Below, piece by piece: positions 4,709-29,325 of a stretch of DNA of 44,466 nt. This stretch comes from a virus. The DNA is taken from IMG/VR virus record IMGVR_UViG_3300037231_000132, positions 1 through 44,466 of that record; one strand, given 5' to 3'. The notes below the pieces were generated by a model, which saw only the letters and a list, made by a program, of their open reading frames with translations, had not been told where the DNA came from and did no database searches. Positions within the stretch are counted from its first letter, which is position 1. Every line of letters starts with the position of its first letter. The position numbers and the translations under genes are program-made.

Positions 4709-4765
4709 GATGAGAGGCTATGCAAATGTGGAGCGTCTGATGGCGTACGGAGAACGAGGAGCGCG

Positions 4766-5083
4766 TCAGCTTCCACTGGGTTCTATGTAAGCGCGGGCGT
4801 GCGGACCAAATCCCACGAGGGGCTCGCAACCCGGCTTGTGCTTAAAGTAGATGCCCCCACACGCGCTGCACTTGCCTGGATAATCCAAGGTTACTTTGTA
4901 TTGGCCACGGCCATCCTGCATGCCTTCGAACGCTTCGGCGGTCACGGGTCTGCCGTCCACCATGATTTCGGAAATCTTGGTTCCACAACGAGGGCACGAA
5001 AGGCAGGTTTCGGCATGGATATTCTCGGACTCAGGGAAGAGCTTCTCAATCACCATCGGAGCGTGGCATTGCAGGCAGTTCAT
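4766..5083 (-). CDS. Small zinc-ribbon protein
   Basis: Hypothetical 105-aa protein with three CxxC knuckles: CLQC near the N-terminus, CPRC about residue 30 and CSAC about residue 72. A pair of these probably forms a zinc ribbon. The start at 5083 is chosen because GAGG stands 5-6 bases upstream. An ATG at 5113 would overlap the end of the gene before it and add ten residues. It is the last short gene of the early operon. No function can be assigned; such ribbons usually mediate nucleic-acid or protein contacts. Confidence 0.7.
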   Translation of the reverse strand: MNCLQCHAPMVIEKLFPESENIHAETCLSCPRCGTKISEIMVDGRPVTAEAFEGMQDGRGQYKVTLDYPGKCSACGGIYFKHKPGCEPLVGFGPHARAYIEPSGS

Positions 5084-5102
5084 AAAGACCTCGATTCCAA
5101 TT

Positions 5103-5648
5103 CTAGCTTCCATAAGGCCGCCCAATGCGCGGCGCGTTGCGGAAGCTTTCAATGTATTTGCTAAACGAGGAGCGGCTTATGCGCCAGGGTGAGACGCGCG
5201 CGAACTGGTAAGCCTCGAACCTGCCCGCCTCGATTCTGTGCAGCACCTTGCTGGGATGGATGGACAGTGCATCCGCAGCATCTTCGACGATCATTGTGTC
5301 AGACCAGGGGAACGGCAGCAGGTCATCGTCGCGATGGCGCCCCCAGATGGGCGCGGCGCGCCGATCGGCGATGGCGTGCTTGTGGCGGAGATGGTCAAGG
5401 AAGCGCACCAGGGAGTCATAGTCGATGCGCAGCGGCGCACAACGCATTGTGTTATAGGCAGACAGGCAGGTCTCCGTGGATCCATCCTTGAGCGGCGTCG
5501 CAGACAGGCGGCGCACCACAGGCGCTGTGACGTGCAGAATCGCACAGCAGCGCGCCATGTCGATGGTCTTCTCGTCAGGGAACGGGAGCAGCAGCTGGGG
5601 CGGCATCTCCTGTTCCATCGCATTTGTGACGCGCCGCCAGGCTTTCAT
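5103..5648 (-). CDS. HTH DNA-binding protein in the position of Mu Mor
   Basis: 181-aa protein. The C-terminal part (MIVEDAADALSIHPSKVLHR, then WRISRSSFSKYIES) reads as an excisionase/MerR-type winged helix-turn-helix, in which a helical DNA-reading unit is followed by a wing and an anchoring helix. The N-terminal part (TIDMARCCAILHVTAPVVRR) could be a second, degenerate HTH. It starts with an ATGA overlap at 5645-5648 and lies two genes after the GemA-like gene, close to where Mu carries mor, the activator of the middle promoter. I do not see the Mor/C family itself. A role as activator of late genes is inference from position and fold only. Confidence 0.72.
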   Translation of the reverse strand: MKAWRRVTNAMEQEMPPQLLLPFPDEKTIDMARCCAILHVTAPVVRRLSATPLKDGSTETCLSAYNTMRCAPLRIDYDSLVRFLDHLRHKHAIADRRAAPIWGRHRDDDLLPFPWSDTMIVEDAADALSIHPSKVLHRIEAGRFEAYQFARVSPWRISRSSFSKYIESFRNAPRIGRPYGS

Positions 5649-7194: not shown

Positions 7195-7593
7195 TCACTG
7201 CTGAGGTCGCACCAGGTTGGTCCGCGTCGGATGATGACGCAACAGGTTGCGGGCTTCGCAATAGCGCAGCTCAAGCGCGCAGTAGTTCGCGCAATTTGAC
7301 GGGTCGTACCAGAGAGCGCCGCCCTCCATCACCTGCGGCTGCGAGACGCCCTCGACAGCGGAGACGGCGTGGATGTCGGCGATCTCGACGGCCATCGCAT
7401 TGACATCCTCAAAGCGATCCTGGACTTCATCGTCGGAAGGGACGCTCCTCTTGGCCCGCACCCATGCCTGCAGGTCGCCGGTACTGTTGATTCCAGCCTT
7501 CCGCGCCAGCCGGTAGCAGGCCGCGCAGACGGTAGCCGAAGCGCATTTAGGATCGCCGCAGAGAGGGCAGTAAACGGTGCTGACCTTTGTCAT
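7195..7593 (-). CDS. Zinc-ribbon protein (132 aa)
   Basis: An N-terminal CPLC (residues 9-12), then a cysteine at 17 and CAAC (23-26), form a likely treble-clef or ribbon. A helical middle (DDEVQDRFEDVNAMAVEIAD) follows, with a C-terminal segment containing WYDPSNCANYC. It starts by ATGA overlap with the GRHW-motif gene (7590-7593). No known family. It is one of about ten CxxC-bearing products in this operon. Confidence 0.72.
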   Translation of the reverse strand: MTKVSTVYCPLCGDPKCASATVCAACYRLARKAGINSTGDLQAWVRAKRSVPSDDEVQDRFEDVNAMAVEIADIHAVSAVEGVSQPQVMEGGALWYDPSNCANYCALELRYCEARNLLRHHPTRTNLVRPQQ

Positions 7594-7934
7594 GCGCGAT
7601 CCTCCGCGTTGCGTACAGTGGACTGGTTGAGCAGCACTTCTCGCGACCTTTCGAGCAGGCCGCAGTCAATGCCGTGCAGCTTGGCGACGTGGATGAGCGC
7701 GTTGGTGCGCGCGATCAAATACGGGTAGGCGTTCGTCTTTCGATCGAGCCACTCTGACAGCGTTCGCGTGACTTCGTCGCGCAGGCCCATCGGCACTTCA
7801 AGCCAGTGCCGGCCGCACACCAGCCAGCGGCGGTTGATGGCCGCTGTGCAGGTGGGCACCTGGCAGATGTGCACTGTGGCCTGATTCGTGATGCCGCCGA
7901 TAGCGTCTATCGCTCGTTTGGAACTGACATACAT
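7590..7934 (-). CDS. CGRHW-motif protein, paralogue of its upstream neighbour
   Basis: 114-aa protein with the pattern CQVPTC, WLVCGRHWLEVP, LRDEV, then YPYLIARTNALIHVAK. The neighbouring gene (7934-8239) shows the same order: C-x4-C, LVVCGRHWLMLG, IRDTI, CPYLTAITWARLYIA. The pair therefore arose by tandem duplication. The Cys/His pattern would suit a zinc knuckle. The start at 7934 (MYVSSKRAI) gives a TGATG overlap with the paralogue; a GTG at 7955 is the alternative. Function unknown. Confidence 0.74.
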   Translation of the reverse strand: MYVSSKRAIDAIGGITNQATVHICQVPTCTAAINRRWLVCGRHWLEVPMGLRDEVTRTLSEWLDRKTNAYPYLIARTNALIHVAKLHGIDCGLLERSREVLLNQSTVRNAEDRA

Positions 7935-8239
7935 CAGCAGGTTCCTTTCTTCCACTGGTTGCGCTCGGCTTCGAGCTGCTTCATGGTTTCAACGCTGCAG
8001 TGCTCGCGGATGGCGATGTAGAGCCGCGCCCAGGTAATCGCGGTAAGGTATGGGCAGACAGGCCCCAGGCCGCCCTGCGCTTCCTGTTGCGTGAGCTGAA
8101 TGGTGTCGCGGATGGCAGGCCCCAGCATCAGCCAGTGCCTTCCACACACCACCAGGCCCAGCGGGATCTGCTCTGTGCAATTCAGCGCATAGCAGGGCTT
8201 CCGTTTCGGCGTTATCATCGCGATCTCAGGCCTGGTCAT
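7934..8239 (-). CDS. CGRHW-motif protein, tandem paralogue
   Basis: 101-aa partner of the duplicated pair. CYALNC precedes VVCGRHWLML and a conserved helical tail with PYLTAITWARLYIAIREH. It starts by ATGA overlap with the winged-helix gene (8236-8239). Conserved cysteines and His in both copies point to a structural metal site. No family or function recognised. Confidence 0.74.
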   Translation of the reverse strand: MTRPEIAMITPKRKPCYALNCTEQIPLGLVVCGRHWLMLGPAIRDTIQLTQQEAQGGLGPVCPYLTAITWARLYIAIREHCSVETMKQLEAERNQWKKGTC

Positions 8240-8721
8240 CGCCCGCCTCCGCCCGGCCCGATCTCAAGCTGCAGCTGGCCCAGCAGCTCAAGCGCTGCGC
8301 TGGGGCCGTCAACGCAGCGCAGCACGCCCAGCTCCGCGCGCACCTGGTCCAGGATGTGGCGGCGCAGGATGGCGTGGTCCTCGTCGGTGACCATGATGAA
8401 ATAGCCGCCGCCCGCTTCCTTGCTGGAACCGATGGGCAGATGGAAGTTCATGCGCAGGTTGCGGACGGCCTGCTTGATCTGCCGGTCGCTGAGCTGGTCA
8501 TTCTTGGTCATGCGCACCTGCATCTCACGGATAGCCATGGACTGCTTGACGCCGCGGCGAAAACGCAGGAAGGTGAGCACGCGCTTCTCATCCGGGCCGA
8601 GGGTGAGGCCGAACGGGCCGCCGGACCTCCCGGTAAGCAGCGCCAGAATGTCTGAGTCGATGCGCTGCGTGCGCTCTTCAATGGACGGCTTGAGATCGGG
8701 AAACAGGGACTGTTCTGTCAT
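8236..8721 (-). CDS. Putative winged-helix protein (161 aa)
   Basis: It starts at MTEQSLFPDLKPSIEERTQR by ATGA overlap with the Cys-rich gene before it. The middle, about residues 50-115 (EKRVLTFLRFRRGVKQSMAI, LSDRQIKQAVRNLRMNFHLP, then GGGYFIMVTDE), reads as a winged helix. It has helices, a recognition helix with basic residues, and a Gly-rich beta wing that presents YFI. The C-terminus is helical and Gly-rich. A DNA-binding or replication-accessory role is inferred from fold alone. Confidence 0.7.
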   Translation of the reverse strand: MTEQSLFPDLKPSIEERTQRIDSDILALLTGRSGGPFGLTLGPDEKRVLTFLRFRRGVKQSMAIREMQVRMTKNDQLSDRQIKQAVRNLRMNFHLPIGSSKEAGGGYFIMVTDEDHAILRRHILDQVRAELGVLRCVDGPSAALELLGQLQLEIGPGGGGR

Positions 8722-8978
8722 GCTGCGTCTCCGAATAGGTGTTGCTGCGGTGGGGGAGCCTGTTGCTTGTGGCGTGGGCAGTAATCGAGATCCGGGCCGA
8801 CGCTTGTGGCGCACTTCTCGCACATGCCGGCATCGCAGGTTTTGTTCTTGCCGGTAGCGTAGTCGCAGAGCTTGGCCACCGGCAGGTTGCGGCAGAAGGT
8901 GCAATATCTAGTTCCACCCCGCGTACAGGCGTGGAAGGTAAGGGGACCGCTTTCCGTCTCAATCGTCTTCCAGGGCAT
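8718..8978 (-). CDS. Cys-rich zinc-binding phage protein (86 aa)
   Basis: It carries CTFC, then KTCDAGMCEKCATSVGPDLD with YCPRHK following, a Cys/His series that I recall from small conserved proteins in many proteobacterial phages, probably binding two zinc ions. The start at 8978 gives a TGATG overlap with the preceding gene. Function unknown across the family. Confidence 0.75.
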   Translation of the reverse strand: MPWKTIETESGPLTFHACTRGGTRYCTFCRNLPVAKLCDYATGKNKTCDAGMCEKCATSVGPDLDYCPRHKQQAPPPQQHLFGDAA

Positions 8979-9277
8979 CAGCGGCCTCCTTTCGTGAGCT
9001 GCAGGCGGCCGTTGCCGAGCGCGGGCCCGGTCGCTTCGACGGTGACCTTTCCGCGCTCATGCAGCGTCTCCCAAAAAGCGAACAAGTCGCGGCTCAGGTC
9101 GTGCGTGTTATTCAACGCCAGGGAGAGGCGGTCCTTGGCGGTACGCAACTGGCGTTCACTGCCGCGCGAGGCCAGGGCGCGCTGCAGCTCATGGCGCAGG
9201 CTCATCAGGTCCGTGGTGAGCTGCTTCGACGAGGCGATCAGTGTGTCAAGCGCCGGGGTCTTAATTTTGTCTGTCAT
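8978..9277 (-). CDS. Hypothetical coiled-coil early protein (99 aa)
   Basis: Almost entirely helical. Heptad-like hydrophobics run through TLIASSKQLTTDLMSLRHEL and TAKDRLSLALNNTHDLSRDL, ending in a Gly-rich tail. ATGA overlap at 9274-9277 with the gene before and TGATG at 8978 with the gene after. No family recognised. Confidence 0.7.
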   Translation of the reverse strand: MTDKIKTPALDTLIASSKQLTTDLMSLRHELQRALASRGSERQLRTAKDRLSLALNNTHDLSRDLFAFWETLHERGKVTVEATGPALGNGRLQLTKGGR

Positions 9278-9495
9278 CGGTTAGCCTCTCTGGAATCCCT
9301 CGTCAGTTCCACGCAGGCATCGCAGTAGTCGTTGCCGCGGCTATAGCGCCAACCGGCTGCTTTCGCATGTGCGCGAAGCTGACGGATGGTTGGCGGAGCG
9401 ATGAACGATTGTTCAGTGAGTTCATCAATGCTGGGGAAAGTCACCTCGACGCCGTGGTCTTCGCAGCAAAAGAGAATCTTGGTTGAACGGATCAT
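9274..9495 (-). CDS. Hypothetical Cys-containing early protein (73 aa)
   Basis: The start MIRSTKILFCCEDHGVEV at 9495 overlaps the preceding stop as TGATG. CC-x2-H near the N-terminus and CDAC at residues about 58-61 could form one zinc site. The segment APPTIRQLRAHAKAAGWRYS resembles a short DNA-contacting helix pair. No known family. Confidence 0.7.
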   Translation of the reverse strand: MIRSTKILFCCEDHGVEVTFPSIDELTEQSFIAPPTIRQLRAHAKAAGWRYSRGNDYCDACVELTRDSREANR

Positions 9496-9833
9496 CAACT
9501 CACCGTCCCTTCCACGCGGATGCCCTGACGGCGAGCGAACAGCGATTCCTTTGCGTCCAGGTCAAGCTCGCTCCATCTGGCGTCGAGCATCCGCTCGCGC
9601 GCCTCGCGGGCAAACGTCCCGGAGACCGCTGTCATCGCGGCGTAGCCGGGGATGAAGAGGCTGCAATGCGCGCCAAACTTCGGCAGGTAAACGCGCATCT
9701 CATCCGGACGCTTATCTGGAGGCGGCGGCCCAACATGCACGACAAAGTGAATGGCGGCGTCGCGCTCCACGCGGCACAGCGTGCCCAGCTCCCGATAAAC
9801 CTCCAACGCGGATTCACCGCGCGGCGCGTTCAT
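9495..9833 (-). CDS. Hypothetical early protein (112 aa)
   Basis: The start MNAPRGESALEVYRELGTLC at 9833 is fixed by an ATGA overlap with the preceding gene. The body alternates strands and helices (AAIHFVVHVGPPPP, RVYLPKFGAHCSLFIPG) and ends with a charged helix. Possibly a small alpha/beta fold. I do not recognise it. Confidence 0.68.
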   Translation of the reverse strand: MNAPRGESALEVYRELGTLCRVERDAAIHFVVHVGPPPPDKRPDEMRVYLPKFGAHCSLFIPGYAAMTAVSGTFAREARERMLDARWSELDLDAKESLFARRQGIRVEGTVS

Positions 9834-11603: not shown

Positions 11604-11836
11604 CGGGCACCTCCGGCGATGCGGTCGACAGGGCCGCCGTGGAAGAAGACCGGCGCAACCTCGCCGACCAGGTAGACAACGACCAGGATCAGGAAGACAT
11701 AGAGCATCAGCTCGATCCTGCTGCAGGAGCGCCGGCAGAGGCGCTCAAAGTAGTCGCAACGGGCATCGACGAGGCTGCCGTCCATGAGCCAGGTCCACGC
11801 GTTGCGGAGCGATTGAACAGGGTGCAGGAGGGTCAC
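11600..11836 (-). CDS. Small single-span membrane protein (78 aa)
   Basis: It starts at GTG 11836, which makes a GTGA overlap with the MuB-type gene and places GGAGG (11843-11847) at good distance. An ATG at 11851 is the alternative. One strong membrane segment (MLYVFLILVVVYLVGEVAPV) follows a basic, Cys-containing region. Role unknown; its place directly after the transposition genes is unusual. Confidence 0.7.
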   Translation of the reverse strand: MTLLHPVQSLRNAWTWLMDGSLVDARCDYFERLCRRSCSRIELMLYVFLILVVVYLVGEVAPVFFHGGPVDRIAGGAR

Positions 11837-12801
11837 TGGACAGCCTCCCATTCCCCGCTCAGGTCAGTGGCCGGTGCGTTGGTGGCCAGCGTCTCTCGTG
11901 CGTCGCGGGCAGCGGCCATGAGGCGGCCGATGGAGATGTAGCGCTCGCGCTTCTTGTTAATCCGGACGGTGATGGAGGCCAGGTCAATCTGCTCCTGGAT
12001 CACCGCGGCTTCAAGATGCGGAGCCACCTCGACCAGCTCCTGCCGCAGGATGCCGGCCGCCTCATCGCGGGTGAGCGCGGGCAGGTGCACCTTGTCGGTG
12101 ACGCGGCGCTCCAGCTGCTCCAGCGTCTCGGCGAAGTCGTCGAACACCTTTTCGAGTTCATGCGATCCGGCGAAGCAGAGCGAGAAGCGCGGGCTCTCGT
12201 CAAGCAGCTCGCGCACCGTCTCGAAGCAGTCCATGGAGAGATGCTGTGCTTCATCTAAATAGAGAGCCACGCGCTGGCCGCGGAAGTCATACCGCAGGTT
12301 GGCGATGGAGCGCTCAATAGAGGAGTGCATGGTGGTGCCGCAGGCGTAGCAGATGCGGCGGATCAGATCGCGTGGGCTGATGCGCGCCCGGCAGTAGATG
12401 CGGAAGACACGCGGCGCGCCGTGGGCGGCTGTGTCCTCGGTGATCAGGTGCCGTGCGATATCCGTCTTGCCGGATCCAGGAGGCGCGTATGCCAGAAACA
12501 GCCTGGGCCGTTCCAGGAGGCGCTTGAAGATGTCGCGCATGGCGGTGACCGCGCCGGTCTCGTAGATATTGCCGGTGAAGCCGTCGGCCGCCTCCAGGGG
12601 GTTGCTCTCAAGGAAGGTGAGGACGGCGTTCACCAGGCCCTGATCCTTGATGCGTTCGTACTTCCCAATGAGGAAGAGATGGATGGACTTGTAGCCATAG
12701 CCGACGCGGGTTGCAAAGTCCGCGGGGGCCATGCCGGTGCGTGCGATGAATGCCAGCGCCAGCTTCTGCACGCGCTGCTGTTGCGGGTCGTAAGGGGTCA
12801 T
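11833..12801 (-). CDS. MuB-type AAA+ ATPase, transposition target-DNA activator
   Basis: 322 aa, close to Mu B in size. Residues 1-70 form an HTH-like N-terminal domain (DFATRVGYGYKSIHLFLIGK). Walker A is GSGKT at 109-113 (in APPGSGKTD), and Walker B is VALYLDEAQ at about 178-186. A sensor-like segment FAGSHELEKV and an arginine-rich stretch follow. In Mu, the B ATPase forms filaments on target DNA, attracts the transpososome and stimulates the transposase. The gene overlaps the transposase gene by ATGA (12798-12801), as expected for a coupled pair. TniB-type proteins share the fold, but the neighbouring MuA-like transposase decides the call. Confidence 0.9.
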   Translation of the reverse strand: MTPYDPQQQRVQKLALAFIARTGMAPADFATRVGYGYKSIHLFLIGKYERIKDQGLVNAVLTFLESNPLEAADGFTGNIYETGAVTAMRDIFKRLLERPRLFLAYAPPGSGKTDIARHLITEDTAAHGAPRVFRIYCRARISPRDLIRRICYACGTTMHSSIERSIANLRYDFRGQRVALYLDEAQHLSMDCFETVRELLDESPRFSLCFAGSHELEKVFDDFAETLEQLERRVTDKVHLPALTRDEAAGILRQELVEVAPHLEAAVIQEQIDLASITVRINKKRERYISIGRLMAAARDARETLATNAPATDLSGEWEAVQ

Positions 12802-14861
12802 TTGCGGAGTGCCTCCAAAAGTTTGTTTGCAGCCGCAGCCGTGGTTCCCGGCTGCGTGGTTGGGGTGGGTGGTTGGAGCCGGGCGGGTGTGGGGCGGTGG
12901 ACAACAAGCTGATCAATGTCGATAGGCAGGCTGCCGATGGCCAGCATCTGATCGTGCTGGGGCATGTAGCCGGTGGCCAGGACGCGCTTCTTCAGCTCGT
13001 CGAGCTTGCCGCGCGTCTCCTTGTAGCGGCGTCCGCGCTCCTGCATGCTGGCGGCGATCGCGGCCTGGGTGTCGGCATCCTTGGCGTGGCGCACCAGCGT
13101 CTCCGCCTCAAGGTGCGCGATCACATAGCCGTCCGCGTCGATCACGGCCAGCAGGTCGGCGTCCGGATAGTCATAGGCGACGGTGTACTTCTCGCCGGTG
13201 CCGCTGTGGTCATGCAGCGCCTTGCGGCTGTCATCGTCCACGCCGGTGTACTTGCGGCCCATCAGTTCAACGCGGCCGTCGTGGATGGTGCGCTGCGTGC
13301 GCTCTGCCAGCAGGCAGGCCAGGACGTGCGGCTCAGGCGTGGGCGGCTGCTGCTGCCAGCGGTACTGCGCAAAGGCCTGGTTGGGCGTCAGGCCCTTCAT
13401 GCCTTCGACATCCTTGGTGCGCTCGTTGTACTCGCTCTCGATCCACGCGGCAGCGGCACGAATGTACTCGGAGGCGAGCGGCAGATCGGACTCATCGGCG
13501 CGACCCTTGGCCAGAAGTTTTTGATGGCGTTCGAGAGCGGCGATGCAGCGGTCCGGCCGCTTGTCCGGCGATGGGCCGGAGTAGGTTTTGAAGCGGCGGT
13601 CCAGCCGCTGGTGCATCGTGTTGTTGTAGCGCTCAATGGCCTTGGCTTGTGGATGGAACGGCTGGCAGTACTGCGTCTCCATACCCACGCGGCCGATTAC
13701 GCCGATGACTTCGGGCGGCATGTCATCCAGGAGCCACGCGCCGCCGCGCTTGCCGCCGCCGGCCTTCTTGTAATCCTTGCCGTTGTCGCAGTAGAAGAGC
13801 CGGCCAGGGCCGTGCAGCTGGATGGCCATGCGCAGGCAGCGGGTGATGGACCTGGATGAGCCTTCCTGCGACCAGGCATAGGCCAGCATCTTGCGTGAGC
13901 GCATGTCGAGAATGCCGGTGAAACGCAGCCGGATGGCCTCGCGGGTCTTTTGATCGAAGAGATCGTTCTGCACCAGCACATCGATGATGGCGTGGTCCGA
14001 TACCCAGATCTCGTTCGCCTCAAAGTCGGTGTAGCCGCGGCGGATGTAAGGCGCGAAGATCTCGTCATACTTCCTGCGGCCTTCAAGGGCGAGGGTGCGG
14101 AGAGGCGCGGGCAGGTTGTCGAGCTGCGCGCGGACGGTCTCATAACTGGGGGGCGTAATCCCGAGCTGCTGCGCGCGAGCTTTCACGATCTCCCAGCTCA
14201 TGCGCTTGTGGAGATGCTCGTGCAGGTAGGCGTAGGCGGCAATCTCCGCCAGCTCGCGATGCTGCGCGCTCTGCTTGGCCCAGCGGAAGGTGTCCTTGTC
14301 GGCGCGTGTCTTATCGGCCAGGGCCGCAAAGCCGCCGGCGCGGAAGCGGGCCAGCCAGATCTTCAACGTGCGCTCGGAGACTTTGTTGCTGCGCGTGCTG
14401 GTTTCCGCGATGTATCGAATGAGCCTGGTCTGCGATGTGACCGGCGTGCCGTTGGCCAGGCGGAAGGCTGCCCAGCGGTTGGGATCGGCTGCGTAGTCCA
14501 GGATGGGGCGGATGGTGGCCAGGCGCTGCTCGGCTTGGGCCTGGTCTGCCGGATCGGGCAGCAGGATGCGGCGCTCCGGAATGGGCGCGGCGGCTACGCC
14601 CTTGAAGAGCGGGCCGCAGATGAAGGTCTGCGGCTGCTCGCCGAGCAGCTTCTCGCGGATCTCTGCCGGGAACGACGCGGCCAGGTAGAGCTTCTTAAAG
14701 CGGCCGTTGGCTGCCTTCTCAGTGGATTCGCGCGAGACAATCTCGCCGCGCGATTCTTTCTCTCTGAGCCAGCGGTCGGTCCAGCCGGTCGCGGCGATAA
14801 TCTCTTCGGCTGTGAGCCAATGATCTTTGTGGCGGGGAACGAGGGCGAGAGCGGTGCTCAT
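12798..14861 (-). CDS. MuA-type DDE transposase
   Basis: 687 aa, similar to Mu A (663). The N-terminus (HWLTAEEIIAATGWTDRWLR, then RFKKLYLAASFPAEIREKLL) fits the Mu-type winged-helix domain that binds enhancer/operator DNA. Helical end-binding domains lie at about 100-260. The catalytic core has D289 in EIWVSDHAIID, D359 in LFYCDNGKDY and E410 in QPFHPQAKAIERYNN, giving a DDE triad spaced 70 and 51. A beta-barrel-like Mu C-terminal domain and a basic Pro-rich tail follow, where Mu A contacts B and ClpX. It cuts and joins phage ends during replicative transposition. Coupled by ATGA overlaps to the tiny membrane gene upstream and to the ATPase downstream. Confidence 0.94.
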   Translation of the reverse strand: MSTALALVPRHKDHWLTAEEIIAATGWTDRWLREKESRGEIVSRESTEKAANGRFKKLYLAASFPAEIREKLLGEQPQTFICGPLFKGVAAAPIPERRILLPDPADQAQAEQRLATIRPILDYAADPNRWAAFRLANGTPVTSQTRLIRYIAETSTRSNKVSERTLKIWLARFRAGGFAALADKTRADKDTFRWAKQSAQHRELAEIAAYAYLHEHLHKRMSWEIVKARAQQLGITPPSYETVRAQLDNLPAPLRTLALEGRRKYDEIFAPYIRRGYTDFEANEIWVSDHAIIDVLVQNDLFDQKTREAIRLRFTGILDMRSRKMLAYAWSQEGSSRSITRCLRMAIQLHGPGRLFYCDNGKDYKKAGGGKRGGAWLLDDMPPEVIGVIGRVGMETQYCQPFHPQAKAIERYNNTMHQRLDRRFKTYSGPSPDKRPDRCIAALERHQKLLAKGRADESDLPLASEYIRAAAAWIESEYNERTKDVEGMKGLTPNQAFAQYRWQQQPPTPEPHVLACLLAERTQRTIHDGRVELMGRKYTGVDDDSRKALHDHSGTGEKYTVAYDYPDADLLAVIDADGYVIAHLEAETLVRHAKDADTQAAIAASMQERGRRYKETRGKLDELKKRVLATGYMPQHDQMLAIGSLPIDIDQLVVHRPTPARLQPPTPTTQPGTTAAAANKLLEALRK

Positions 14862-18879: not shown

Positions 18880-19149
18880 TTGCCAGCAAGCAAGCCGGTC
18901 GCGGTGGTGTTCAAGGAGATCACACGCGATCGCTTCAAGGCGTTTCGGGCGCGGATCCGCGTGGAGGCCGTCGAGGTTGTCTCGGTTGGCGACCAGGGAT
19001 CGGCGAAGGATGCGGACAGCAAAGTGCTGTGGACCTATGAGGAGCCGGCGCAGACGCTGAAGCTGATCTGCACCGAGAGCCCCTGGTGGATGACGAACGC
19101 GGCAGTGGAGGCGCGAATGCGCAGTTTGATGGAGGGTGTATGCGGATGA
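18880..19149 (+). CDS. Hypothetical protein (89 aa)
   Basis: TTG start at 18880 with GGAG 8 bases upstream. It begins with basic residues and strands (PVAVVFKEITRDRFKAFRAR, VEAVEVVSVG) and ends with an amphipathic helix (NAAVEARMRSLMEGV). Its last ten bases overlap the start of the exported PLD-like gene, which suggests coupled translation. No family recognised. Confidence 0.6.
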   Translation: MPASKPVAVVFKEITRDRFKAFRARIRVEAVEVVSVGDQGSAKDADSKVLWTYEEPAQTLKLICTESPWWMTNAAVEARMRSLMEGVCG

Positions 19150-19787
19150 GGATTGCGAGATTGATTGGACCGGCCGCCATGCTGGCCGGGATGCTCTGCG
19201 GCTTCGCTGGGCAAGCAGTTGTGGATGCCCAGACGGGCAACGATCTGCAGGCGAAGCTGGTGATTCCGGTCGAGGCGGCGACCGGACTTCCCCTCGGCAC
19301 CTACTACTCCCCGGAGACGAATCTTGAGCCGTTCGACGTGAACGCGATCAAGTCCGCGGTGAAGTCGATCGACCTGGCCGCCTTCTCGCTCACCGACCAG
19401 GCGATGATCGACGTGCTGAAGGCCCAGGCTGGCCATGGCGTCGTTATCCGAATCTATCTCGACCGGGGAGAACTCCAGGCCGAGTGCCGGGGAGATATAA
19501 GTTGCCAGCGGTCACCTATCCACGAACTTATGGACGTGCCCGGCGTGACTATCAAGGTGAAGTACTCCAAGGTACTCATGCACTTGAAGAGTTATCTGGT
19601 GGATGACTGCCTCTTACGGGACGGCTCGGCCAATTTTTCTGTCCAGGGCGAGAGCCGCCAGGACAATTCGGCGGTGTTTTCCACAGACGCCGGGGCCATG
19701 AAGGGGTTCGGCACGAAGTTCGCTGAGATGTGGATGCGCCCGGACAACCTCGGGGTTGCCCAGGCTGTGACCGAGGCGAAGAAATAG
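19140..19787 (+). CDS. Exported phospholipase-D-like (HKD) protein
   Basis: 215 aa from ATG 19140 (ATG 19146 also possible), with GGAGGG just upstream. The signal peptide is MRMRIARLIGPAAMLAGMLC through AVVDA. The single-HKD Nuc/EndA-type PLD pattern is present: FDVNAIKSAVKSIDLAAFSL, GHGVVIRIYLDRGE, then MHLKSYLVDD (H148, K150, D155) and GSANFS with N165. The order and spacing are canonical, so it is likely an active phosphodiesterase acting after export on nucleic acid or phospholipid. It sits between the lysis genes and the terminase, fitting release of virions or digestion of competing DNA. Exported single-HKD nucleases act as dimers. Confidence 0.82.
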   Translation: MRMRIARLIGPAAMLAGMLCGFAGQAVVDAQTGNDLQAKLVIPVEAATGLPLGTYYSPETNLEPFDVNAIKSAVKSIDLAAFSLTDQAMIDVLKAQAGHGVVIRIYLDRGELQAECRGDISCQRSPIHELMDVPGVTIKVKYSKVLMHLKSYLVDDCLLRDGSANFSVQGESRQDNSAVFSTDAGAMKGFGTKFAEMWMRPDNLGVAQAVTEAKK

Positions 19788-21563: not shown

Positions 21564-23136
21564 GGAGGCCGGAGCGTCCCTCCGGTCTGTCTTCTCCAAA
21601 GTCCCTGTCAAGCCGCGCGGTGAACGCTCGGAGGGAACGGTTGTTCTCTCTAAAGCGTGGGAGCTGGCCGAACAGATCAGCGATTTCGCGGTCAAATATC
21701 TGCGCCACTTCATGCTCGATCCAGAAACTGGCGCGTTCATCCCTCCGGCCCAGTTCCACCGCGAACTTTACACGATCCTCCTGACCGAGCGATTCGCTGC
21801 GATCGCTGCGCCTCGCGAGCATGCCAAATCTACGGTCGTATCGGTTATCTTTCCGCTCTATTGCATCTGCTACAAGCTGCGCCGTTTTATTATCCTGATC
21901 GGCGATAGCCAGCCGAACGCCGCGCTTCAGCTCGCCTCGATCAAGGAAGAGCTTGAAACCAACGCCGAGTTGCGGCAGGATTTTGGCGACCTGGTCGGCG
22001 ATAAGAAGTGGGATGTAAACGACTGCCGCACGAGTACCGGTATTACGATCGCGGCGCGCGGAGCGGGCCAGAGCCTCCGCGGGATGCGTTATCGGCAGTA
22101 CCGGCCTGACTTGATCATCATCGACGATCTCGAAGAAGAGGAGTCTGTCGAGAATCCCGAGACCCGCGCGAAGTTGATGAAGTGGTTTAAGGGAACTGTG
22201 ATGAGCCTGGGCAAGCGCGCCCAGATTTTCGCGGTCGGCACCATTCTTCACTTCGACTCGTTTCTCTCTAATCTTCTTGATCCTGATAAATTCAAGCGTT
22301 TCGTTAAAAGGAAGCTGGAGGCCGTCGACGATGAATGGTCTCCGGAGTCGGTCCTCTGGCCGGAGAACTGGGACATCGAATCCCTCAAACAAAAAGAAGA
22401 AGACATTGGGTCGGTTGAATTCAATCAGGAATTTCGCAACCGACCCATTAGCGCAGATACGCAAGTCTTCCAGGAGGACTGGATAAAGCGCCATGCGTTC
22501 ACCCGCGAAGAGCTGCGCCAAAAGACCACGGTAAGGGTTACCTATTACGATCCAGCGATCAGCCTCAAGAAACGCGCGGACTTCTTCGCAAGCGTTACGC
22601 TCGCGATCGACGGAAATGGATTTCTGCATGTCGAGCGCTCCGAGGGCGTCAAGCTGCCCTATATCAAACAAAAGGAATTCATTCTCAACCGCTTCGATGA
22701 AGAGCAGCCGATGGTTGTCGGCATCGAAAACCAGGCTTATCAGGATGCGCTTAAGCAAGAGATGGAAGAGCAGAGCCGTGTCACTGGCCGCTATATCAAC
22801 ATCGTCGGCGTCCCAAACCTGACCGACAAGTTTCTCCGAATCTCCAGCATCTCAGGTCTGGTGGAGAATGGCACGATTCGCTTCTGCCTTGATGGGACAC
22901 AGAAGACGCTGATCAACCAGCTCATCTTTCTCGGAAAGATGAAGGATGACCAGGCCGACGCGCTGCAGGGCGCGGTGCAGCTCGCGAGGCAGTTCAACTT
23001 TCAAGCTGCGATTGCGTCGAGCAATGTCCAGGTGGGCGGCCGAGAAATGACATTCGGCCGCGGCGAAGTGATGACGGCCACAGGCCGGGGCGATGGCGAT
23101 TTCGTGCGCCGTGACAGGAGTTCCAGATGGGGTTGA
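21517..23136 (+). CDS. Terminase large subunit
   Basis: 539 aa. The N-terminal ATPase has a terminase-type Walker A APREHAKST (98-106) and Walker B LIIIDDLEEEE around D203/D204. The C-terminal RNase-H-like nuclease has VTYYDPAISL (D345), VGIENQAYQD (E404) and MKDDQADALQ with acidic residues at 477-481. The motor feeds DNA into the prohead and cuts it at headful, as expected for a transposable phage that packages flanking host DNA. AGGAG precedes the ATG 21517. Its last ten bases overlap the portal start. Confidence 0.92.
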   Translation: MPPRPSQNKSKRQRREEAGASLRSVFSKVPVKPRGERSEGTVVLSKAWELAEQISDFAVKYLRHFMLDPETGAFIPPAQFHRELYTILLTERFAAIAAPREHAKSTVVSVIFPLYCICYKLRRFIILIGDSQPNAALQLASIKEELETNAELRQDFGDLVGDKKWDVNDCRTSTGITIAARGAGQSLRGMRYRQYRPDLIIIDDLEEEESVENPETRAKLMKWFKGTVMSLGKRAQIFAVGTILHFDSFLSNLLDPDKFKRFVKRKLEAVDDEWSPESVLWPENWDIESLKQKEEDIGSVEFNQEFRNRPISADTQVFQEDWIKRHAFTREELRQKTTVRVTYYDPAISLKKRADFFASVTLAIDGNGFLHVERSEGVKLPYIKQKEFILNRFDEEQPMVVGIENQAYQDALKQEMEEQSRVTGRYINIVGVPNLTDKFLRISSISGLVENGTIRFCLDGTQKTLINQLIFLGKMKDDQADALQGAVQLARQFNFQAAIASSNVQVGGREMTFGRGEVMTATGRGDGDFVRRDRSSRWG

Positions 23137-24866
23137 TTCCGGGGCGGATCAAGACGATGTTTTCGCGGCGCGGCGTGAGTGAACGCAATAGCCTGACCAT
23201 GCTGAACCTCAATGAGGCGAAGCGCTGGGAGGCTGCGCGCGAGGATCAGGACACGGCCGCGGTGCGCGGCGCGCTGGTAAAGGCAGGTATGACAAACGTG
23301 GCGGAGAGCGATATCCCCATGCTCACCGCCGCCTACAAGATGCTGGGCACGGGCAAGATCACGGAAGAGCAGCGCCTGGCTGCCGAGGCTGTTGCACCGC
23401 AGCTCTTCACGCTGACCACGGGCGATGGCGAGGATCCTGGCTTTCGCCGCATCACCAGCCTGGCTACGCTGCGCGATCTGAACCCGCTGATGCATGACCG
23501 CATGCTGCAGGTCTGCTACTTCCTCGCGGTCACCACGCCCTTCGGCAAGCGCATCGTCGAGATCCTCACTGACTACACGCTGGGCAAGGGCGTTCGCATC
23601 ACGGCCAAGGATCCGCGCGTCCAGGAGGTGATTGACAACTTCTGGAACGACGAAGTGAACGACATGGACGCCAACATCGAGAGCTGGTGCGATGAGAAGA
23701 CCATCTTCGGCGAGCTGTGCGTTCCGGTTGCGGTGAACCCTGTCGATGGCAAGGTGCGCGTCGGCTACATCGACCCGATGAACATCGACACCATCCAGTT
23801 CGCTGAGATGGCCACGGCAGACGGCACGGCCAGCATCAACGTGCCTTTCGCTGTCAGGCTGCGCCGCGAGGTTGGCGAGGTACTGCAGAAGCCGATGCTC
23901 ATCATCCGCCGCGTCGAGGATCCGAACGATGAGAACTACGGCCGGCTGAACGGCGAATGCTTTTACTGGTCGCTGAACAAGGTGAAGAGCGCCAGCCGCG
24001 GCTTCAGCGAGCTGTTCGCCCTGGCCGACTGGATCGACGTATTCGATCAGCTCATCTTCGACTTTGCGGACAAGTGCCGCTTCCTGAACTCGTTCGTGTG
24101 GCATTACACGCTGACCGGCGCGGATCCGAAGAAGGTGAGCGAGTTCAAGGACAAGCTGACCAAAGACCCGCCGCGCCAGGGCGGCGTGCAGGTAACCAAC
24201 GAGCAGGTCAAGATCGAAGCGCAGACGCCGGACTTCAAAGGTCAGGACATGGCGCAGGGCGCGGCCATGGTGAAGAAGTATGGCCTGGGCGGCGCAGGCA
24301 TTCCGCCAGTGCTGATGGGCGATGGCGACGATGCCAACCGCGCGTCGGCGCTGGAGATGAATGCGCCGTTCACGAAGAAGATCCAGAAGCGGCAGAACCT
24401 TTTGTCGCGCTGCATCAAGGCCGTGCTGAATTTTGTGCTCGATCGCGCGCAGCAGGCCGGCGTACTGCCCACGGGCGTGGACCTGACTTACACCATCGAG
24501 TTTCCCGAGGTCGCAGTCAAGGATCTGGACAAGGGCGCGCAGACGCTCACGGGCGGCGCCACGGCGCTGCAGGTGGGCCAGCAGGAGGGATGGATTACCG
24601 GCATCACCGCGGCGCGCGCATTCCACACGCTCCTCTCTGAGATCGGCGTGGATATCGACGATAGCCAGATGGAATACAAGGCGGCGCAGCAGGAGAAGGA
24701 CGATCGCGCGGCCAAGCAGCAGGACAGCTTCTTCCCGCAGTCGGCCCTGGCCGGCGTCCTGAAGACGCTGAAGCTGCCGGGCACGCCGAACTCGAAGGAT
24801 GAAACGGGCCAAGGCCCGGATGCCGACGAGCTGGACGAAGACGAGCAGCGCACGGGGGTGAAGTGA
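23127..24866 (+). CDS. Portal protein
   Basis: 579 aa. Segments such as HDRMLQVCYFLAVTTPFGKR, IVEILTDYTLGKGVRITAKD and IIRRVEDPNDENYGRLNGEC, with a clip and helical stem (FRFLNSFVWHY-like) before a long C-terminal crown, fit the dodecameric portal. Position right after the terminase agrees. It is the DNA gate and head-tail connector base. AGGAG precedes the ATG. The last 60 residues are acidic and low-complexity. It ends in a stop that overlaps the exported-protein cassette (TGATG). Confidence 0.83.
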   Translation: MGLIPGRIKTMFSRRGVSERNSLTMLNLNEAKRWEAAREDQDTAAVRGALVKAGMTNVAESDIPMLTAAYKMLGTGKITEEQRLAAEAVAPQLFTLTTGDGEDPGFRRITSLATLRDLNPLMHDRMLQVCYFLAVTTPFGKRIVEILTDYTLGKGVRITAKDPRVQEVIDNFWNDEVNDMDANIESWCDEKTIFGELCVPVAVNPVDGKVRVGYIDPMNIDTIQFAEMATADGTASINVPFAVRLRREVGEVLQKPMLIIRRVEDPNDENYGRLNGECFYWSLNKVKSASRGFSELFALADWIDVFDQLIFDFADKCRFLNSFVWHYTLTGADPKKVSEFKDKLTKDPPRQGGVQVTNEQVKIEAQTPDFKGQDMAQGAAMVKKYGLGGAGIPPVLMGDGDDANRASALEMNAPFTKKIQKRQNLLSRCIKAVLNFVLDRAQQAGVLPTGVDLTYTIEFPEVAVKDLDKGAQTLTGGATALQVGQQEGWITGITAARAFHTLLSEIGVDIDDSQMEYKAAQQEKDDRAAKQQDSFFPQSALAGVLKTLKLPGTPNSKDETGQGPDADELDEDEQRTGVK

Positions 24867-25522
24867 TGCGGAGAGTGGTTCTCATTTTCGCCCTGGTCGC
24901 GGCGGCGATCGGCGCTCAGGCGCAGACCGTGGTGTTTCAATCCACGTCCGTTACTGACTCAGCTAACAAGCCGGTGACGGGCACGATCTACGCGCAGCCA
25001 GTGCTGCCGAACGGAACGCCAACGAGCTATCACAAGCCTGGCGGCGGTGTGGCCACGTCGGCTCAATTTCCCATCTCCGTGACAGCGGGTGCATTCTCTG
25101 TGCCGCTTTCAGATACGGCGCTGACTTCTCCGCCTATCTGTTTCAAGCTGACCTACTCAACGGTGCTCACCGCGGCCTATAGCTGCGTGCCAGTATCGGC
25201 CTCCGCTTCCTACTGCACAACCACGGCGGGCGTCACAACCTGCGACCTGGGCAACTATATTCCCACCGCGCCGCCCACATCGCCTGCAAGCTATGTCGCT
25301 TCGATCAATGGGCTGTCGGGCAGCTTCACTATCACCGGGCTGAGCTGCAACTCCACAACGCTTGTTTGCACGTTGAGCGGTAGCAGTTCTAGCAGCAGCA
25401 GCGTGTCTGTGTACGTCAACGGAACGCTCCTCTCAAGCACCAGCCCGGCCGTGTATGTCAATGGAACTCTTATCGCCAACGCGGGCGGCGCAAGCCCCAC
25501 CGTCAATGGAGGAACACTTTGA
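24866..25522 (+). CDS. Exported fibre-like protein 1 (218 aa) in the head operon
   Basis: It starts at ATG 24866, overlapping the portal stop; a GTG at 24863 is the alternative. The signal peptide is MRRVVLIFALVAAAIGAQAQ. The mature part carries spaced cysteines, SYHKPGGG, a GAFSVPLSDTAL strand and a C-x5-TTCDLGNY end. The same pattern occurs in the N-terminal 150 residues of the 1056-aa protein at 1538-4708. The last 60 residues are Ser-rich with repeated SVYVNGTLLSS/VYVNGTLIAN units. It couples to the next gene by a TTGA overlap. A secreted protein here is unexpected; fibre/decoration or lysogen surface role are possible. Confidence 0.75.
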   Translation: MRRVVLIFALVAAAIGAQAQTVVFQSTSVTDSANKPVTGTIYAQPVLPNGTPTSYHKPGGGVATSAQFPISVTAGAFSVPLSDTALTSPPICFKLTYSTVLTAAYSCVPVSASASYCTTTAGVTTCDLGNYIPTAPPTSPASYVASINGLSGSFTITGLSCNSTTLVCTLSGSSSSSSSVSVYVNGTLLSSTSPAVYVNGTLIANAGGASPTVNGGTL

Positions 25523-26655
25523 AGCTGATCCGTTTGTCCGCCGCCCTCGCGCTCTTGCTGCCTCTGACCGTGGCCGCGCAGACCGTTCCTTACAACTTCT
25601 CAGGCTCAGTGCCTGCAGCACCGACCGCCGCAGTTAATCTGAGCTGGCAGCATGACAGCTCCACTCCTGCGAACCTCTCCGCGTACCTTACGCTGTCACA
25701 GATCGCGGCGCTCTTTCAGTCCCTCACGGGCTGTAACACCCCCACCTGGCTGTGGAGCCCAGAGGACGGGGTCTGCCACGCGCCAAGCTCGGGCTCCATA
25801 ACTGGCGTCACCGGTACCGCGCCTATCGTTTCCAGCGGCGGAGCCGCGCCCGTGATCTCGATCACGCAGGCGACCACGTCGACGCCTGGTTATCTCTCCA
25901 GCGCGGATTGGAATACGTTCAACGGCAAGCAGGCCGCCCTCACCAACCCTGTGACCGGTCCCGGCAGCGGCGCCACTGTCGGACATCCCGCTGTGATGAA
26001 CAGTACGTCGGGGGACTCGATTATCGACGGGGGTAGCACGGTCATGGTCGACGGGGCCAACTCCACCACCACGCCAGGCATGGTGCCCATGTCGACATCC
26101 GCGGCCGGCGCGTACGCTCCAGGCGATCTCTGGCTGCGCGAAGTGATAGTGACTGCCAGTTGCAATGGGACCATGGCGGCCGCGGGGCTGAGCCTGCCGG
26201 CTACCTCCGCGCCCAGCCCCGTGTGCCGCACCGGCACAAACGTGCAGACCGGCTACCTGCAGTTTGTGGCCTCGCAATGCGCGCAGTTCCAGGATGAGAT
26301 TCCCGGCGATTGGGACACGGCGAACGGTCCGGAGGTGCGCCTCAATTATGCGCAGAGCGGAAGCACTGCTTCGCAGAGCATCGTCTTCACCGTCCAGGCC
26401 GCGGCGTCCACAACCACAGACGATGCGGCATTCACCGCGGCGCAGACTTTCTCCACCACCACGACTGGGGGCACCGCGAACACGCCTTACAGCCAGAGCC
26501 TGCAGCTGAACTCCACGTCCATCACCGGCTGGGCTGCCGGCGACGTGGCCAACTTCAAGGTGTGCACCGCGTCCGGATCGAGCGCGACCGCCAACCTTCA
26601 ATCGGTGACCCTGACCTGGCCGCATAAGACGCCTGGTGTGGCGGAGGCGAACTAA
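25519..26655 (+). CDS. Exported fibre-like protein 2 (378 aa) in the head operon
   Basis: TTG start at 25519 with GGAGG 6 bases upstream, overlapping the preceding stop. The signal peptide is MKLIRLSAALALLLPLTVAA. Around residues 90-150 the sequence GVTGTAPIVSSGGAAPVISI with TTSTPGYLSSADWNTFNGKQ is a segment widely seen in phage tail fibres and similar beta-helical proteins. The C-terminal half (residues about 210-370) is beta-rich with repeated Thr/Ser strands. It overlaps the next gene as TAATG. The fibre motif favours a virion or receptor role, but the signal peptide implies passage through Sec. Confidence 0.75.
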   Translation: MKLIRLSAALALLLPLTVAAQTVPYNFSGSVPAAPTAAVNLSWQHDSSTPANLSAYLTLSQIAALFQSLTGCNTPTWLWSPEDGVCHAPSSGSITGVTGTAPIVSSGGAAPVISITQATTSTPGYLSSADWNTFNGKQAALTNPVTGPGSGATVGHPAVMNSTSGDSIIDGGSTVMVDGANSTTTPGMVPMSTSAAGAYAPGDLWLREVIVTASCNGTMAAAGLSLPATSAPSPVCRTGTNVQTGYLQFVASQCAQFQDEIPGDWDTANGPEVRLNYAQSGSTASQSIVFTVQAAASTTTDDAAFTAAQTFSTTTTGGTANTPYSQSLQLNSTSITGWAAGDVANFKVCTASGSSATANLQSVTLTWPHKTPGVAEAN

Positions 26656-28400
26656 TGAAACAGCTACTCCTGCTCGCACTGTCGGCTTCGCTGTCCTGCA
26701 CCTCATGGGGACAATTCCGGAATGCGTTCGTTCCCGTGCAAAATCTCACCGCGCAGAACTGGAGCGTGATGGATTGGAGCGCCTGCCCTAACGGCGCTGT
26801 GCCCACGGCCACGAATATTCAAAACTCGATGTTCCCATTTCCTTCCGGGGCATCCGTCACTATCTCGAACCCTGCCAGTGTTCTTAATTGCATAACCCTG
26901 GCGCAGGGCAATCCGTGGATGGTGAAGCCGAACATCGCTGGACTCTCGTGGCCAAACAATGGCGTTAGCGGCATGGAGTTGACCAGCGGTGGTGCTACGG
27001 AGGATAACGACATCCTCATCACGTTCCCGGCGTCTGGCACTACAAATCAGCGTGCTTACTGCGTCTGGATAGCGCCTGACATTCCGCAGAATCAAGCAAG
27101 CTGGGGCGCCACCGACATTGCCAGCCTCAACGGCAACGCGGGTGGCGGCGACTTTGTGAACATGCAGATGCGTGGGACTGGCACGTACTTGCAATGGAAT
27201 CTTGAAAGCGGCGTGGGAACCAACTACGCGTCGAATAATGCCTTCACCACTGCGCCGCCTGCCACCATCGTGTGTGGCCAGGTCAACTATTCTGGCACAG
27301 ACTATCTTGGCCTGTGGAACGCGGCGACAGGACAGATCATCCCTGGAAGTCTCGCGCAGAATCCCGCAAATGGATCAACCTCCGGGTATATCTATCTGGG
27401 GGCTGGCGCGGGCACAGTCTCGATTCCTGCCGGCACGGATATACGCTTTGGCTCTGTCATCATGTGCGGCCTTGTCTCAACTGCAGCCAACTGCAACTTC
27501 CCTTTGGGTACTGGGCTTGAGCTTTACCCAGCCGTGGACTCACCCGGCAATGGAGCCTACACCGGCACAACTGCTGTAACCATCAGCGATACGCCCTCGG
27601 CCGGGAACATTTACTACACGCTCGACGGCAGCACCCCGGCATGCGCCAACGGCGCGGCCACCCACGGGACGCTCTATACCGGCAGTTTTAACATCAGCAG
27701 CTATCCCACCACGCTCAACGAGATCGCCTGTCTCCCTGGCTACGCCAACAGCGCGCTTAATACCAGCGTCTACTCTGCGCCGACGCCGCCCGGCGCGGTT
27801 GTGCAGTCCATCGGCAGTAACAACTATGGATCGTCGGTCTCCGCCGCCCTGCTGTCGAACACGACAAGCGGGAACAATTTGACAGCCGCTATTCAGGCGG
27901 GTTCGAGTGCCTGCGCTATCGCGGCGCCGACTGGCTGCGGTGTGACCTGGACGCAGGATGGAACTGGCGGATCTGCCGGCGGAACGGTCATGGCCGTTTA
28001 CACCGCACCGATTGTCGCCGGCGCGGCGTGCACGGTGTCAGTGTCGGTAAGCGGATGCTCGACGGATATCCATGTTGGTATTTGGGAGACCAATGGAACC
28101 GGTGCGGCCGATGGCGCGCCCGTCTATCACCAGAACACGCAATACTGCACCACTGGATGCACCGGGGCAACTTTCAGCAGCGCGAACGCCGGAGACCTGG
28201 TGCTGGATGACGTGTTCACCGGATACTCCACGGCGCTATCAGCTGTGACAACTTTCTCCATCGACACCCAGGCCGAGACAGGCGATGGGTCCTACGCGCT
28301 TCTCCACTACGGGTGGACAGGCTCAGGGTCCACAAACGCGACGTTCACGCAGACTTCTGGAAACACGTTCACCGAAGTGTTGGTGGGCCTGAAGCCGTAG
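26655..28400 (+). CDS. Exported protein 3 with chitobiase C-terminal-like domain (581 aa)
   Basis: It starts at ATG 26655 with GGAGG 7 bases upstream. The signal peptide is MKQLLLLALSASLSCTSWGQ. Residues about 60-280 are a beta-sandwich with WGATDIASLNGNAGGGDFVN-type strands. About residues 290-375 (AVTISDTPSAGNIYYTLDGS, TPACANGA) match the CHB_HEX_C-type domain found in surface glycosidases. The last 180 residues form another Ser/Thr/Gly-rich sandwich ending FTQTSGNTFTEVLVGLKP. Sugar binding is plausible; no catalytic residues are apparent. It closes the three-gene exported cassette before the Mu F-like head gene. Confidence 0.75.
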   Translation: MKQLLLLALSASLSCTSWGQFRNAFVPVQNLTAQNWSVMDWSACPNGAVPTATNIQNSMFPFPSGASVTISNPASVLNCITLAQGNPWMVKPNIAGLSWPNNGVSGMELTSGGATEDNDILITFPASGTTNQRAYCVWIAPDIPQNQASWGATDIASLNGNAGGGDFVNMQMRGTGTYLQWNLESGVGTNYASNNAFTTAPPATIVCGQVNYSGTDYLGLWNAATGQIIPGSLAQNPANGSTSGYIYLGAGAGTVSIPAGTDIRFGSVIMCGLVSTAANCNFPLGTGLELYPAVDSPGNGAYTGTTAVTISDTPSAGNIYYTLDGSTPACANGAATHGTLYTGSFNISSYPTTLNEIACLPGYANSALNTSVYSAPTPPGAVVQSIGSNNYGSSVSAALLSNTTSGNNLTAAIQAGSSACAIAAPTGCGVTWTQDGTGGSAGGTVMAVYTAPIVAGAACTVSVSVSGCSTDIHVGIWETNGTGAADGAPVYHQNTQYCTTGCTGATFSSANAGDLVLDDVFTGYSTALSAVTTFSIDTQAETGDGSYALLHYGWTGSGSTNATFTQTSGNTFTEVLVGLKP

Positions 28401-28422: not shown

Positions 28423-29325
28423 ATGGCAGATAGCCGCGCACAGGCCTACGCACAACAGCTCGACGCGCTCACGCGCGCGGCGGCGGCCCTGTCTCCCGAG
28501 GCGCGGCGGCGCATCCAGCAGCTGCTTGACCAGGCGAACAAGGAGATCCTCGCGGACCTGGCTCAGGCGCGGCCGGAGAGCTACAACGCCGCCAGGCTAC
28601 AGGCGCTGAAGGCCCAGGTCAACCGCGTGATGGCTGACTTTGCGCAGCAGGCATCGAGCGCGATCGCGGCGATGGAGGTGAAGGCTTACGAGCAGACGGC
28701 TATCGCGATCGACGCCACGGTGGCGGCCGGGACTGCGACGCTGGCCGTGCATCCGGTGGTGGATCGCGCCCTGGTGCAGGTGGTGCAGGGATACTCGGCG
28801 GATCTGATCGGAGGCCTCACGCACGACATGAGCGCCAAGATCAATGCGGCCATCCAGCGCGGCGCCCTTGGCGGAATGAAGCTGCAGCAACTGGTGACGG
28901 AGATCGGCACCACCCTGGAGGACGGCAAGTTCAGCGGCCTGTTCTCCCAGGTGGGCGAGCGGGCCATGACCATCGCAACCAACGAGATCATGCGCATTCA
29001 GTCGCTGGCGTCGGTTACGCGCATCAACGCGCTGGCTCCGCACCATCCGGGGCTGATGAAGCGCTGGAAGCATATCCCCGTGGCGCGCGTGCCGCGTGTG
29101 AGTCACCTGCTGGCGAACAACCAGGACCGCAAGCCGGCAGAGCCTTTCCTTGTGGAAGGCGAAGAGCTGCAGTACCCGCGCGACCCCAACGGCAGCGCGG
29201 AGAACACCATCAACTGCCATTGCCTGGTGCAACCACACCTGAGCGAGACCCTACTGAAACCCACTGACGCCGAACGCCAGCTCCTCAAGGACATGGGCAT
29301 CGGGGTCACAGCCCGCGCCGCTTGA
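28423..29325 (+). CDS. Minor head protein, Mu gpF/SPP1 gp7 family
   Basis: 300 aa. The C-terminal signature KRWKHIPVARVPRVSHLLAN, with PRDPNGSAENTINCHCLVQP after it, is that of the phage Mu F-like head morphogenesis family, which has ART/SPP1 gp7-like cores. The N-terminal half is helical. It is injected or incorporated with the portal and helps head assembly. GAGGGGG precedes the ATG. In Mu-type phages this gene follows the portal directly; here the three exported genes separate them. Confidence 0.88.
   Translation: MADSRAQAYAQQLDALTRAAAALSPEARRRIQQLLDQANKEILADLAQARPESYNAARLQALKAQVNRVMADFAQQASSAIAAMEVKAYEQTAIAIDATVAAGTATLAVHPVVDRALVQVVQGYSADLIGGLTHDMSAKINAAIQRGALGGMKLQQLVTEIGTTLEDGKFSGLFSQVGERAMTIATNEIMRIQSLASVTRINALAPHHPGLMKRWKHIPVARVPRVSHLLANNQDRKPAEPFLVEGEELQYPRDPNGSAENTINCHCLVQPHLSETLLKPTDAERQLLKDMGIGVTARAA

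Follow-up and report, generated by a model that had tools for sequence, protein, structure and literature searches.

The tail fibres of tailed phages are normally cytoplasmic proteins. What, then, are three overlapping, fibre-like genes with Sec signal peptides doing inside the head operon of a Mu-like phage? We addressed this question in a 44,466-base IMG/VR virus record, the whole of which is referred to here as the window.

A three-gene insertion between portal and MuF

The early operon of this Mu-like soil phage runs leftward and includes an rve-type transposase (12798-14861) and a MuB-type AAA ATPase (11833-12801). The late genes are read rightward and comprise terminase, portal, MuF, a capsid/protease fusion, tape measure and hub, the last two being assigned partly by position and comparison and the hub gene being cut by the contig end. 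Gene order, transposase and MuB-like ATPase resemble those of phages with the Mu-like head operon (portal, MuF, protease-capsid), to which the window adds three fibre-type genes, here termed A, B and C, between portal and MuF. A fourth gene, T, lies at the left end and encodes a protein that shares an N-terminal domain (ND) with A; B and C lack ND. The features under study are:

1538-4708, minus strand: gene T, 1056-aa exported fibre-like protein (predicted) with ND, at the distal end of the leftward early operon
23127-24866, plus strand: portal gene (SPP1_portal, phrog_10963)
24866-25522, plus strand: gene A, 218 aa; predicted Sec signal 1-19, ND at about 20-145, short Ser/Gly-rich tail
25519-26655, plus strand: gene B, 378 aa, TTG start; predicted Sec signal 1-20, tail-fibre segment 94-144
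26655-28400, plus strand: gene C, 581 aa, ATG start; predicted Sec signal 1-19, chitobiase/hexosaminidase C-terminal-like domain 297-368
28423-29325, plus strand: MuF-like minor head gene (phrog_2468)

The earlier note's description of three overlapping genes between portal and minor head gene was confirmed for A, B and C. Start and stop codons overlap in the order TGATG, TTGA and TAATG, i.e. the genes are translationally coupled, with the TGATG at the portal stop opening A (start ATG at 24866; a GTG at 24863 is possible). A portal search retrieved 49 related viral contigs, 48 of which also carry a MuF gene. In all 48, the gap between the two genes measures −9 to 214 bp, as compared to 3,560 bp in the window, whose MuF gene is shifted by 3.56 kb relative to every relative compared; the portal stop itself overlaps the MuF start (TGATG/TAATG) in a number of close relatives, e.g. 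L002, L014 and L016. None of the 48 has A, B or C in this slot. Since portal and MuF lie within 214 bp of each other in 48/48 relatives, we regard A, B and C as an insertion, seen in this phage only. That Mu-type phages have nothing at this position, as was proposed earlier, thus holds for fibre genes, yet one lineage (L009-L013) fills the slot with an unrelated 66-aa ORF (L009:11737-11937), indicating that the portal/MuF junction takes extra genes. From their position between portal and MuF, A, B and C should be expressed late.

A set of genes seen once, and in 0/48 relatives, could reflect an assembly or gene-calling artefact, in which a foreign piece of contig was spliced into the head operon. 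We consider this very improbable, as the start and stop codons overlap exactly at the joints, including the portal TGATG, the GC content of the insert (0.613) equals the genome mean (0.612), reading frames are intact and coding periodicity is kept.

With respect to families, two domain assignments made earlier were borne out: B contains a common tail-fibre segment (residues 94-144 match phrog_19567, E 0.0018; 559 viral stretches encode relatives of B), and residues 297-368 of C match CHB_HEX_C_1 at E 5.7e-9, which passes the Pfam cut-off. The C-terminal part of B matched no family, and neither B nor C has full-length relatives. For A and T, no Pfam-A family was found at E 0.1 or better, and the sole PHROG match of A is weak and lies outside ND. 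Scans of viral contigs with A, T or C as single proteins returned no relatives, the domain having diverged too far for peptide patterns to pick it up; ND is detected by profile searches. T and C had no match in the isolated-phage collection.

Sec signals and paired cysteines

Signal peptides were assessed with a home-made Sec scorer of n-, h- and c-regions, using a strict threshold of 9.5. The predicted cut sites were MRRVVLIFALVAAAIGAQA|QT for A (score 14.8), MKLIRLSAALALLLPLTVAA|QT for B (11.6), MKQLLLLALSASLSCTSWG|QF for C (8.3) and MRARLLTLLLLLASSAAWSQ|TQT for T (11.7; the scorer's own cut falls after residue 17). All four N-termini display an n-h-c organisation with small residues at −3/−1; A, B and T exceed the threshold, and C, the weakest, stays below it yet has the same form. 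At the first start codon, the scorer gave no false positives among 382 known cytoplasmic phage proteins; with any start allowed, 4 of the 382 scored positive, three of them in a single family (19969). Out of 2000 shuffled N-termini each, 0 scored as high as A, 24 as high as B, 53 as high as C and 4 as high as T. The claim of Sec signals on all three inserted genes was therefore upheld, with C falling short of the strict threshold, and because of these signals we file A, B and C as fibre-like and exported rather than as ordinary tail fibres. No lipobox and no C-terminal anchor or transmembrane segment was found in A, B, C or T, nor did any of them match a beta-barrel family in Pfam. Elsewhere in the window, a PLD-like protein in the putative lysis region (19086-19787, plus strand; PLDc_2, E 3e-16) also carries a signal peptide, as do 5/6 of its homologues in relatives by score.

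The cysteine content offers a second line of evidence. The mature parts of A, B, C and T contain 6, 6, 14 and 22 cysteines, respectively (1.7-3.0%), as compared to 0-1% in terminase, portal, capsid and tape measure. Exported proteins of Gram-negative bacteria are biased toward even cysteine numbers (PMC7678975). Indeed, 48/51 signal-bearing fibres with ND (L291, cut by a contig end, was excluded from this count) have an even number in the mature part, compared to 11/32 cysteine-bearing, signal-less control fibres (Fisher p 6e-9, a value that overstates independence, as members are related, though they diverge strongly in their C-terminal regions). Signal-less ND fibres have even numbers in 6/9 cases, too few to judge. 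Median cysteine content was 1.58% in signal-bearing ND fibres, 0.94% in signal-less ND fibres and 0.15% in controls. The even numbers independently support predicted export and disulfide bonding.

As a control for B, we inspected 80 viral loci encoding its fibre segment, 74 of them with complete N-termini. Signals were scored on 2/74 fibres (72 had none), both from soil viral contigs. In L121, the signal-bearing fibre (3955-5472) overlaps a hub gene with Phage-tail_3 and Rcc01698_C domains; in L123, the signal-bearing fibre genes (7213-9204 and 9135-9536) lie among structural-type genes. Thus, signal-bearing fibres exist outside the ND family too, but rarely. A different exported protein (~160 aa, '...QA|QKTYRDAT...') is encoded directly behind the capsid gene in several relatives (L029, L034, L039, L042, L046 and L049; e.g., on contigs turned such that the portal is on the plus strand: G033:26556-27074, G028:18363-18839, G038:7980-8471). 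It occupies the expected place of a decoration protein, weakly matches a major tail protein PHROG, and possibly represents a second case of an exported virion-type protein.

A predicted exported fibre family defined by ND

That the first inserted gene shares its N-terminal domain with the 1056-aa protein, as the earlier note had it, was confirmed by profile search: the ND HMM was built from thirteen domains including A, and a leave-one-out version omitting both A and T still recovered A at 2e-17 and T at 2e-37. Judged by the Pfam and PHROG searches of A and T described above, ND is an unnamed family. It occurs in 40/397 sampled Terriglobales genomes, for the most part on fibre proteins of large size; in a phylum-wide sample, it was found in 5/396, all five also being on the Terriglobales list. 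This restriction to one order and the portal matches in an Acidobacteriaceae and a Ca. Angelobacter MAG point to a host within the Terriglobales (Acidobacteriota).

The surroundings of ND genes were read from 48 fetched loci. In 19 Terriglobales tail operons, ND heads 23 signal-bearing genes that sit at or close to the gene for the tail hub (lambda J family, phrog_31) or the tape measure; eight signal-less ND genes occupy the same kind of slot. Two of the hubs were checked to be lambda J homologues (phrog_31), the remainder being assigned from their similarity to members of a reference set. In total, 31 ND genes lie beside a hub or tape measure, as opposed to A, B and C (head operon) and T (left end). 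Mu-type left ends hold a further seven ND genes with and one without a signal, and the remaining cases are in other or unclear surroundings. Signals are hence not tied to one gene position, an option ruled out by their occurrence in tail operons, Mu left ends and head/connector regions alike. The N-terminus of T is conserved at the left ends of relatives (G019 65%, G016 44%, G008 35%), the remainder of the protein differing, and in other relatives one to three signal-bearing genes stand together at the left end, e.g. three each in G042 and G049. The G042 set (294, 252 and 593 aa) resembles A, B and C (218, 378 and 581 aa) in layout only. Among the Mu-like relatives with contigs reaching past the hub, none has a fibre-type gene there; we give this little weight, since most of these contigs extend only 0.2-0.9 kb further.

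Several observations identify ND as a tail-fibre domain, as judged from its tail-operon positions, PHROG matches and the predicted fold of the T domain. ND proteins match tail-fibre PHROGs irrespective of the signal (L230, with signal, E 3e-15; L239, without, E 2e-52), and relatives of A and T have collagen, GDSL and tail-fibre PHROG matches. The AlphaFold model of the T domain is all-beta (pLDDT 78). Foldseek returned nothing below E 1e-3 against the PDB; predicted viral proteins yielded five matches at that level, including the tail fibre of Streptomyces phage BRock (TM 0.50/0.64), with SGNH proteins of Pseudomonas phages ranked lower. The model of A is of low confidence (pLDDT 56), its best match being the Bxb1 tail tip (E 0.015).

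To trace gain or loss of the signal, a midpoint-rooted tree was computed from 61 ND domains, omitting partial or broken genes in L244, L246, L288, L304, L309 and L311. Fifty-two of the 61 genes have a Sec signal and nine do not. The signal label requires three changes on the tree, with signal-less groups nested inside signal-bearing ones; the signal-bearing state is therefore likely ancestral (likely rather than shown, the root being a midpoint), with the signal lost a few times along with cysteine pairs. Signal-less proteins begin with a Met at about the cut site of the others (MPTGYTQVTG in L232; AQ|SSFVTISA in L229), which argues that the mature N-termini are equivalent. Four cysteines are invariant in the subclade of A (A5) and mostly lost in signal-less lineages (mean ND cysteines 1.4 vs 3.4). 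Broken or partial ND genes in L246, L244 (12603), L288 (10435) and L304 suggest turnover of such prophage fibres. In L241 (14117-16555, reverse-complement coordinates), the frame of an ND fibre is continuous with a holin-like stretch at its N-terminus, and translation probably begins at an internal start that has a signal of its own.

The tree also bears on the nature of the hydrophobic N-termini. ND being a fibre domain with signal-less members, the proteins might be ordinary virion fibres made in the cytoplasm, with an N-terminus that does not function as a signal and serves, for example, in attachment. This appears improbable to us: tripartite signals occur in 52/61 ND genes with a scorer that gave 0/382 false positives, cysteine numbers are biased toward even and the pairs are lost in signal-less lineages, and signal-less orthologues without any such peptide keep ND. 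The earlier note had named, as an outcome against its reading, that the N-terminal stretches be ordinary fibre domains of non-exported proteins; the first part holds for ND, yet the proteins still appear exported. Taken together, Sec export of A, B, C and T is well supported by scored signals with a known error rate, by even and enriched cysteines, and by retention of the signal in most of the ND family.

Within the tree, A groups with L300 and L237 (99/91) on a long branch, and T groups with G019; a recent copying of the T domain into A is accordingly not supported. The ND gene of L237 lies between head-tail connector genes and that of L300 between a capsid gene and the tape measure of a possibly decayed prophage, connector and capsid being named by reading the sequences. 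A represents a single relocated instance of a family of apparently exported fibres, the usual seat of which is behind the hub or tape measure or at a Mu-like left end. The suggested search for ND in acidobacterial genomes found the domain, mostly at those seats, and the idea of a special secretion cassette confined to one head operon gives way to that of a relocated member of a wider family.

Possible destinations of the fibres

Where would such proteins act? On balance, we favour A, B and C as an accessory set of receptor-binding fibre proteins that undergo export and periplasmic oxidation and would attach to virions when the cell lyses. As subunits of this fibre, encoded by genes inserted among the late head genes of a Mu-like siphophage, the three proteins would cross the inner membrane by Sec, lose their signals, form disulfides and fold in the periplasm. 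The fibres would be stored there, with capsids and tails assembling in the cytoplasm, and lysis of the cell would bring both populations together, allowing the fibres to attach to the virion. The ND of A may form the base, B the shaft and C the sugar-binding tip; the roles of B and C are guesses, as neither has full-length relatives. T would be another fibre produced in this way. A virion role is argued for most strongly by the signal-less orthologues, which carry ND and fill the same tail-operon slots; the location of the nearest kin of A (L237, L300) in head/connector regions of other prophages likewise counts in favour. Against it stand the usual cytoplasmic production of tailed-phage fibres, the direction of T, which follows the early operon at the prophage edge, away from the late genes, and the signal of C, the weakest of the set.

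Alternatively, the exported, fibre-derived proteins could have no place in the virion and instead target the cell that makes them, or its debris, by receptor masking, superinfection exclusion or prevention of progeny sticking to debris, or as lysogen adhesins or sugar binders. Sec export, well supported as it is, fits this reading, as do the sugar-binding-type domain of C and the position of T and its relatives at the prophage edge beside host DNA, a common site of lysogenic-conversion genes. A precedent exists in lambda, where lom is flanked by the tail spike and tail fibre genes and its product, made in lysogens, is an exported membrane protein (PMC12309495). A hub-adjacent position is therefore no proof of a virion role, and Lom, tail-gene-encoded yet located in the host membrane, is by analogy the strongest argument against one. 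The ND fibres of tail operons share with Lom their predicted export and their location among tail genes (PMC12309495), but Lom lacks fibre modules and forms a beta-barrel in the membrane, whereas no membrane anchor was detected in A, B, C or T. Lacking an anchor or lipobox, these proteins should be confined to the periplasm in soluble form until the cell lyses, unless carried out by another system. In addition, signal-less orthologues hold the same tail-operon slots as ordinary fibres, and coupling ties A, B and C to the late head genes. We therefore hold a role on the producing cell to be possible but rather unlikely. Of the two options raised in the earlier note, surface proteins of the lysogen are less favoured (no anchor, tail-fibre modules, structural-operon position); periplasmic parts joined to virions at release fit the sequence evidence best.

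Compared to PHROG tail-fibre families, ND fibres share modules (collagen-like, and GDSL-hydrolase in relatives), the place at hub or tape measure, PHROG matches and fold matches of ND, and add a Sec signal and paired cysteines. Virion proteins with Sec signals are familiar from the coat of filamentous phages (pIII, pVIII), whose virions assemble in the membrane; here, the phage is tailed, with a cytoplasmic capsid. No report of Sec-exported tail fibres was found in the open PMC literature, subscription journals being outside the scope of this search. A broader proposal, for and against which we see the case as evenly poised, is that Terriglobales tailed phages divide virion construction between two compartments: capsid and tail would come from the cytoplasm, and Sec-exported, periplasm-oxidised receptor-binding fibres would join them at lysis. 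The signal would be ancestral and lost a few times together with cysteine pairs, and the head operon of the window would hold a second such set.

As the ND family occurs in about one in ten sampled Terriglobales genomes, both readings are directly testable. Should the fibres act on the cell, phage-derived secreted adhesins would be carried by an entire host order. If they reach virions, tailed-phage assembly would extend beyond the cytoplasm by a new morphogenesis step, and disulfides and host periplasmic folding would become usable by fibres. Searches for fibre genes would then change as well, since a signal peptide normally counts against a virion protein.
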